Source of the DNA: Candidatus Eremiobacterota bacterium
GTDB lineage: Bacteria; Vulcanimicrobiota; Vulcanimicrobiia; Vulcanimicrobiales; Vulcanimicrobiaceae
Reading direction: 5' to 3'
NCBI GenBank assembly: GCA_019235885.1
Contig: JAFAKB010000093.1
Location: 1 to 43,364 of the forward strand
DNA length: 43,364 nt
Shown here: positions 36,329 through 39,723 of the stretch, one piece after another
Layout: the number at the start of each line of letters is the position of its first letter
Position numbering within the stretch: the first letter of the stretch is position 1
Made by a program: the position numbers and the translations under genes
Notes under the pieces: model-generated
What the model saw: only the letters and a program-made list of their open reading frames with translations
What the model was told of the DNA's origin: nothing
Database searches by the model: none

Positions 36329-36834
36329 CTAGCGGCGGCGCAGCAGACGGCGGTCGAAGGCGAAGGGTTGAACTTCGCCGATCCGGACGGCGGGTTCATA
36401 GTCGGGATGCTCCGGGTTGAGCACGAAATTGCGTTCCGACCGGATGACGACGGACGGAACGCTCAAGACGACACTGCGCCGCTGGTGAGCCCACTCGGTG
36501 CCGAAACGTACTGAAGCGTAGGGAGGCGTCGCATCCCAACCCGGCACCGTGTCGGCGTCCACGGTTTCGACGACTTCCTCGTCGAACTCGGCCCACACCG
36601 AGACCAAGTCCGCCGGCGCATCGTCGAGGTCGACGAGCGTTCCGAGAAACTCGAGTGCCGCCAGCGACAACGTTGCCGACGCGTACGCGGCGCGAACGCG
36701 CCGCGCATTCCAGCGCTGCCCGTTCCGCGCCGCGCATTCCAGCGCTGCCCGTTCCGCGCCGCACCGTTGCCGTCAAATGCGCGCTCCGGCGGCTCGGCAT
36801 ACGGATGCCGAGCCAGGCGCCAAACGCGGATCAG
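36329..36834 (-). pseudogene. RES-domain toxin gene broken by a 29-bp tandem duplication
   Basis: Removing one copy of the 29-bp repeat at 36698-36755 restores a 158-residue RES toxin. It has IRVWRLARHPYAEPP, FDGNGAARNGQRWN (the RES Arg-Gly-x-Arg-Trp-Asn region), RAAYASATLSLAALEFL, VVLSVPSVVIRSERNFVLNP and FAFDRRLL. RES toxins degrade NAD+ by phosphorolysis or hydrolysis. As sequenced, the frame shifts after RWNARR and stops at 36463. The expected start, in a 4-nt overlap with the antitoxin stop, reads CTG (36834-36832) rather than ATG or GTG, a second possible lesion. The 3' half from TTG 36670 is still open. Inactive unless frameshifting or repeat loss occurs. Confidence 0.85.
36698..36762. 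repeat. 29-bp tandem duplication inside the RES toxin gene
   Basis: Bases 36698-36726 and 36727-36755 are identical 29-bp units, with seven bases of a third (36756-36762). Since 29 is not a multiple of three, the extra copy shifts the toxin frame; one copy restores it exactly. Confidence 0.95.
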
Positions 36835-37400
36835 GTGATGCCGCCGTATTCGATCCGGTCTAGCGCCGCAAGGATTTGCCGCGTGCCGATCTCCGTCCGA
36901 ACGAGGTCGATCGGCCGCCGTCCCCCAAGCGAAGGAACGGTGCGCTTCATCCAGCGCAGTGCTTTTTCCACGTCGCCGAAGGCGCGCACCGCCGACGCGA
37001 CAACCTCGAAGAGCCGATACGCCCGATCGGACTCCGCCGGGGCGAGCCGCTCGTCATGTGCGAGCTTCCGCGAGATCGTGCGCTCTGAGGTGCCGACGAG
37101 CGACCCGAGATCGCGCGCGCTCATCCCGGAAAGCGCGCCGAAATCGGCCAGTACGGAAGCGGGAATCCCGGCTTCCACGACGTCGTTCGCCGACGCCTCG
37201 GGCGGCAAATTCAATCCCGCGCCGCTTAAAACGTTTTCCGGCTTAAGATCGCGGTGCACGAACATTGCGAGGTCCGGTGCAGCGACCAAAACCCGTATCG
37301 GCCCGCCCAAATAGGAAACAGATGGCCGCTTCCGGTTCAGTCGCCGCACGAATTCAACCCGACCCGGGTTGTCGCCAGTTGGCGGAGTTCGCTCCGTCAT
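36831..37400 (-). CDS. MbcA/ParS/Xre-type (DUF2384) antitoxin
   Basis: This is a 189-residue antitoxin of a RES-Xre pair. Residues about 85-110 form a helix-turn-helix (GMSARDLGSLVGTSERTISRKL). The C-terminal DUF2384 part shows AFGDVEKALRWMKRTVPSLGGRRPIDLVRTEIG and ends DRIEYGGIT, as in MbcA/ParS antitoxins. It should bind and neutralise the RES toxin and repress its own promoter. The N-terminal extension is unusual and contains MFVHRDLKPENVL, identical to a protein-kinase catalytic loop. The start is ATG 37400, placed at the transcription start by a leaderless promoter; ATG 37265, just before that motif, is an alternative. Its stop overlaps the toxin start position by 4 nt. Confidence 0.87.
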   Translation of the reverse strand: MTERTPPTGDNPGRVEFVRRLNRKRPSVSYLGGPIRVLVAAPDLAMFVHRDLKPENVLSGAGLNLPPEASANDVVEAGIPASVLADFGALSGMSARDLGSLVGTSERTISRKLAHDERLAPAESDRAYRLFEVVASAVRAFGDVEKALRWMKRTVPSLGGRRPIDLVRTEIGTRQILAALDRIEYGGIT

Positions 37401-37435
37401 TTGTCAAGCATACCACAACGTGACCGTCGCGCCAA
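37401..37435 (-). promoter_or_regulatory. leaderless promoter of the antitoxin-toxin operon
   Basis: On the minus strand, -35 TTGGCG (37435-37430), a 17-bp spacer and -10 TATGCT (37412-37407) are followed by TGACAA and then ATG 37400. The -35 borders directly on the long inverted repeat at 37436. Confidence 0.6.
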
Positions 37436-37576
37436 GTCGCGGGAGCGGCCTAGCACCGTGGCGGGCCGTGTGAGCGAGCGTGCGCAGGATGCGCGGAAGC
37501 GATGCGAAGACAGAGCGGCCCCGGACAGGAAGTCCGGGGCCGCGTGCCCGTCACGGTGCTAGGCCGCTCCCGCGAC
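37436..37576. repeat. 141-nt element: 25-bp perfect inverted repeat with an inner hairpin
   Basis: Arms 37436-37460 and 37552-37576 are exact reverse complements. Pairing continues inward to 37466/37546 with one G-U, giving a 31-bp stem. The loop carries a second perfect hairpin, 12-bp arms 37515-37526 and 37532-37543 around AGGAA, plus a small TGCGC-type stem near 37480-37495. No gene lies inside. It starts 12 bp past the hppA stop and ends at the antitoxin -35. No target duplication and no U-run are visible. Confidence 0.9.
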
Positions 37577-37587
37577 CCGCCACCATC

Positions 37588-39723
<2,136 letters not shown>

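Follow-up and report, generated by a model that had tools for sequence, protein, structure and literature searches.

What is the long palindrome that separates hppA from a toxin–antitoxin operon in a Candidatus Eremiobacterota contig, and which of its two neighbours, if either, does it belong to? The window analysed here, the whole 43,364-nt stretch of contig JAFAKB010000093.1, contains at this point a 141-nt element for which three roles had been suggested: control of the toxin–antitoxin operon, a folded RNA after hppA, or a substrate for single-stranded-DNA recombination. The inverted repeat is real (Table 1); its 31-nt arms are 97% complementary, with one mismatch, and lie 79 nt apart, enclosing a perfect 12-bp hairpin with a 5-nt loop. 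The predicted RNA fold of the 141-nt element has an energy of −119.9 kcal/mol, compared with −72.1 ± 3.9 kcal/mol for shuffles (z = −12.4), and amongst inverted repeats within 150 nt it is clearly the strongest in the window. Conserved ends stretch outward beyond the 141 nt, so that the element reaches the hppA stop codon (37588–37590); gene sense here corresponds to the minus strand of the window, which makes the element the 3′ end of hppA. Judged by hppA, the closest named relative is a Candidatus Eremiobacterota genome (83% identity). The original prediction also stated that the element lacks the U-run of an ordinary terminator, which is only partly correct, since TCTGTCTTCG directly follows the inner hairpin (P2) on the hppA strand, and a terminator scan flags the hairpin together with this tail.

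Table 1. Features of the element at the hppA 3′ end and of its surroundings, in window positions.
Feature	Position	Strand	Basis or remark
hppA, H+-pumping pyrophosphatase	37588..39723	−	Pfam PF03030, E 9e-261; element at the gene's 3′ end
Whole element with conserved outer ends	37426..37587 (ends approximate)	−	Covariance-model alignment of copies; adjoins hppA stop codon
Whole-element ends, gene sense			5′ GATGGTGGCGG..., 3′ ...TTGGCGCGAC
Element end sequences			GATNGTGG...GGCACGAT
Outer stem, 5′ arm in gene sense (GTCGCGGGAGCGGCCTAGCACCGTGACGGGC)	37546..37576	−	Pairs covary across copies
Core, 79 nt	37467..37545	−	No differences between the hppA, gdh and rpsM copies in the window's genome and the G008 hppA copy
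Hairpin P2 (GCGGCCCCGGAC-TTCCT-GTCCGGGGCCGC), terminator-like	37515..37543 (stem 37515-37526 / 37532-37543)	−	Inverted-repeat search and terminator scan
U-rich tract TCTGTCTTCG, directly 3′ of P2	37505..37514	−	Terminator scan
Hairpin P3 (GCGCA-TCC-TGCGC)	37482..37494	−	UCC loop near-invariant across copies
Outer stem, 3′ arm in gene sense	37436..37466	−	Contains one mismatch, A.C in gene sense and G.U on plus strand
Putative antitoxin promoter, outside the paired element and bordering it	37407..37435	−	By eye; absent from promoter-scan output
Putative antitoxin promoter boxes	−35 TTGGCG 37430-37435; 17 nt; −10 TATGCT 37407-37412	−
Xre/MbcA/ParS-type antitoxin, incidental neighbour	36831..37400	−	Pfam PF09722, PF20432
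RES-domain toxin, incidental neighbour	36329..36670	−	Pfam PF08808

A DNA search of the window's genome (4.5 Mb in 105 contigs) yielded seven further good copies, which rules out a unique repeat, and the oriented alignment of copies gives one common fold comprising the outer stem, hairpin P2, a U-rich stretch and hairpin P3. Both sides are altered in 29 of 53 pairs, whereas shuffles give 13.3 and sliding the partner gives no more than 11; the P2 stem varies with compensation around a fixed loop (WTCST), and the UCC/UCG loops and an inner core are fixed whilst the stems covary strongly. A covariance model (R1) built from the aligned first copies detects 17 copies in the window's genome and copies in 11 of 11 genomes of the genus, with others scattered in the family, order and class. 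A second subtype (II; the hppA element is of subtype I) was aligned separately to give the model R2, which adds six copies in the window's genome, bringing the totals to at least 23 there and more than 100 in the genus. Searches of the whole genome and of relatives, put forward with the original prediction as checks, thus both returned copies, and the occurrence of covarying copies in independent genomes rules out an assembly artefact. The distribution across the order (Eremiobacterota/Vulcanimicrobiota) is patchy, and the copy counts are lower bounds, as several contigs of the fragmented genomes end inside a copy. Contig ends within or adjoining an element were seen in G010 (C22, C126, C255 and C374) and in G007 (C35 and C287); for annotation, the pattern suggests that the elements are breakpoints of short-read assemblies in this group.

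No Rfam family matches the element above its gathering score, no copies were found on the plasmids, phages and viral contigs searched, and an exact 25-mer search of named genomes gave no match, as expected because the arms are variable. The family is lineage-specific and previously uncatalogued; hardly any RNA biology has been studied in the phylum, which here gains a well-supported family of structured, covarying elements. Two covariance-model matches (L049 and L113 588–712) are apparently an unrelated CCTGAGCTTGTCGAAGG-type palindrome and were left out of the arm counts. That palindrome is a separate dispersed repeat, also present downstream of many copies (L080, L085, L086, L087 and L094); in the rpsM element of G002 (L092:1519–1679), P3 has been replaced or invaded by it.

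The copies are positioned with respect to genes in a near-uniform manner. By gene calls from a script trained on codon usage in the window, 77 of 85 copies are located 3′ of the stop codon of a same-sense gene, at a median distance of about 12 nt and mostly within 20 nt; amongst the 45 copies detected by R2 only, which served as a held-out set, 42 do so (median 17.5 nt). About two thirds of these stop-codon-trailing copies (51 of the 77, and 29 of the 42) face a convergent downstream gene, and convergent gene pairs often have one element each. The upstream genes that recur between species are rpsI, nusG, hppA, rpsM, gdh, ffh, pyrE and infB, names which, except for hppA, were read by eye from C-terminal residues without a family search. 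Orthologous sites are found in 8–9 species for rpsI, four each for nusG, hppA and rpsM, and three for gdh, with conserved gene flanks at the recurring sites; the elements at many housekeeping genes are vertically inherited. A folded RNA after hppA is consequently the best of the three roles suggested at the outset, because the family consistently trails same-sense stop codons and hppA carries the element in four species.

Arms and cores differ in how they vary. The cores listed as identical in Table 1 are flanked by arms that differ, and between the copies L080 and L073 the core is 94% alike whilst the arms are about 43% alike, which is the level of shuffled arms. Over 37 subtype-I copies, arms at the same gene in other species are more alike than those at other genes in the same species (permutation P = 0.014), whereas the cores show no same-gene preference (permutation P = 0.80). 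As judged from these sequence comparisons, the arms are probably inherited with the locus and the cores exchanged between copies, with gene conversion as the likely route. Locus-inherited arms, combined with cores that move between loci, present the first of two evolutionary puzzles.

Most copies of subtype I, that at hppA included, have the sequence features of an intrinsic terminator, namely a GC-rich hairpin and then a U-rich tract, in gene sense and 3′ of a stop codon; at least four T are present in the nine bases after P2 in 30 of 37 copies, compared with 5% of background windows. Subtype II does not, its alignment having neither a U tract nor a long P2. The rpsI site of the window's genome (G000) has a plain hairpin, AAGGCCCGGGTCGACGACCCGGGCCTT, with the tail CTCGTTT, and the stem of this terminator (AAGGCCCGGG) resembles the P2 stems of the sisters' rpsI elements; the G010 rpsI site has only P2, with eight consecutive T after it (TCTTTTTTTT). 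The hppA site has an ordinary terminator in G005 and, in G002, a short hairpin that resembles an element whose core has been deleted and whose outer ends remain. In G006 (a genus member assembled as one contig of 3,508,363 bases and carrying several copies), the gdh copy retains nothing but P2, the U tract and the outer stem. The plain terminators at sister sites, the U tracts of subtype I and this gdh copy together form the main argument for a role at transcript ends; since subtype II has no U tract, termination cannot be the family-wide function and the common role must be wider.

Further arrangements were observed around these sites. The hppA 3′ end of G003 (L231) has a different nested palindrome, in which GATGAAAACACCCTC arms surround a GC-rich hairpin together with an A-run; this may be a third type of gene-end element. 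A subtype-II core, for example that at L060:2168–2318 (−), contains about seven UCC and zero GGA in gene sense, which leaves many GGA on the opposite strand; the pattern might act as anti-Shine-Dalgarno sequence, be connected with CsrA, or merely reflect composition. Next to subtype-II elements, L060:1200–2700 and L061:1500–3700 are gene-poor intergenic islands with several interspersed kinds of repeat, one of which is a 63-nt unit in four copies.

The residual mispairs of the arms are asymmetric between the strands. In gene sense, A.C mismatches outnumber G.U mismatches 79 to 24, and A.C prevails in 44 copies but G.U in 9 (P = 1e-6). Amongst the held-out copies the corresponding counts are 51 and 15 (P = 1e-5), or 28 and 7 by copy, and the P2 stems lean alike (7 to 1). 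Related copies are not fully independent in these counts, and when similar mismatch contexts are aggressively merged, the count of 79 to 24 weakens to 28 to 16 (P = 0.10). Composition bias was rejected as the cause, as neither fourfold-site nor intergenic composition has such a lean. A gene-sense A.C is a G.U on the opposite strand, where more of the pairing is therefore preserved; this strand also folds better in 79 of 83 copies. The A.C to G.U ratio is 58:17 at convergent and 21:7 at tandem gene ends, and its constancy at the latter means that opposite-strand RNA from convergent neighbours is no simple explanation. Either the opposite-strand fold matters, or G.T mispairs in gene-strand hairpins are preferentially repaired; this replicated asymmetry is the second evolutionary puzzle.

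The best explanation of these findings, which we regard as about evenly balanced between right and wrong, is that the hppA element belongs to a family of composite gene-end elements, oriented and specific to this lineage, with a transcript-end role, insulating the gene end; that it marks a transcript end is probable. In gene sense, it would form part of the hppA 3′ untranslated end, with an outer stem of about 31 bp around a core containing two UCC/UCG-loop hairpins. P2 and the U-rich tail of subtype I may end the upstream transcript, whilst the long outer stem would form in RNA that crosses the element unstopped, whether by read-through or as opposite-strand RNA, and could there act as an RNase III substrate or as a barrier. 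Insulation of the gene end in this manner would fit the frequent position between convergent genes. The family presumably spread by copying, probably with core conversion between sites, and would later have become fixed at particular genes. Subtype II, without the U tract or long P2, speaks against a transcript-end role, as does the excess of A.C over G.U in both sets, which is the reverse of what a sense-RNA stem predicts. That excess, the better fold of the opposite strand and the failure of base composition to account for the excess favour a functional form on the strand opposite the gene, namely an antisense RNA whose hairpin loops carry GGA (and might, for instance, bind CsrA, which is encoded) or a template-strand single-stranded DNA hairpin; however, no conserved promoter reading in from the far side was seen in the flanks, the P2 loops are often ACGA rather than GGA, and the sole Rfam hint is a far sub-threshold match to RsmY, and we consider this form unlikely. 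A broader proposal, in which an undescribed gene-end class has its working fold opposite the gene (as antisense RNA or template-strand DNA hairpin) and exchangeable cores are swapped into locus-specific palindromic arms, strikes us as rather doubtful. Replication template switching, which would keep the palindromes perfect with the arms unselected and make covariation a by-product of DNA mechanics, would accommodate arms that evolve far faster than cores yet remain paired, and the rarity of G.U intermediates; it fails to predict the stop-codon orientation, the fixed loops and the strand asymmetry, and is very unlikely.

The element might instead be mainly a non-autonomous mobile palindrome (compare Correia, ERIC and MITEs) without any set function for the host, inserting or converting preferentially 3′ of stop codons, a reading that we consider less likely than not. 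The copies are dispersed, cores are 94–100% identical between unrelated loci and species, presence at one gene differs between species, and the outermost ends are partly conserved (37–38 of 83 copies; the 3′ end motif GSCRCGAT occurs in 37 of 83, compared with 1.2% of random 40-mers) whilst the arms differ between loci. Against mobility, the arms are locus-specific, many sites are common to several species with compensated changes, plasmids, phages and viral contigs yielded no copies, and the lack of target-site duplications stated in the original prediction extends to the whole family, direct flanking repeats (5 nt) numbering 27 compared with 31.1 with mispaired flanks. A RAYT/REPIN system was rejected because PF01797, for the RAYT-type Y1 transposase that was the only transposase type searched, has no match in the window's genome, with controls positive. 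Integron attC was likewise rejected, the R boxes RYYYAAC / GTTRRRY being present in 0 of 83 copies on either strand; the integron integrase profile TIGR02249 gave sub-threshold matches only, as in all control genomes. An autonomous transposon between inverted pairs was also rejected, as nothing but short ORFs and other repeats lies between the pairs in L060 and L061. A single-stranded-DNA recombination substrate is still conceivable in view of the strand asymmetry, but neither integron motif, integron integrase nor Y1 transposase was found; dispersal must nonetheless have occurred despite the negative mobility searches. Regulation of the adjacent Xre/RES toxin–antitoxin operon is extremely improbable: the element does adjoin the putative antitoxin −35 box, which is plausible by eye although the promoter scan gave no such promoter, but the remaining copies adjoin unrelated genes and have no such operon beside them, and the element belongs to the 3′ end of the upstream gene. 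The antitoxin ORF could start at 37400, very near the putative promoter, and its transcript may then be almost leaderless.

SPRITE, BOX/RUP, Correia, REP/BIME and ERIC repeats are relatives in kind of the present family, none of them shown to be related by descent. An integron attC is a palindrome directly 3′ of a stop codon, in gene orientation and with the bottom-strand fold favoured. The element described here shares each of these properties; it differs in having no R boxes, no integrase above cut-off and a location at conserved housekeeping loci. ERIC, BOX, RUP and REP/BIME are intergenic palindromes with paired stems, some of which are found at 3′ ends and convergent genes (PMC3049150, PMC3733652). 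The present family resembles them in these respects, but we found no sequence relation to them; the window's genome has no RAYT transposase, and the arms and core of the family evolve separately. Correia elements (CREE/NEMIS) of Neisseria are similarly dispersed, with inverted repeats around a core and an RNA form that RNase III would cleave (PMC2649163); in a comparison limited to anatomy, the elements here differ in having arms unshared in sequence, no target duplication and a near-strict stop-codon orientation. SPRITE, in which a U-rich tract comes after a duplex of 18 bp, is likewise a dispersed, terminator-like chromosomal repeat enriched at gene 3′ ends (PMC3049150), whereas the element at hppA, from an unrelated phylum, places a 31-bp stem around its terminator-like hairpin and a second hairpin.
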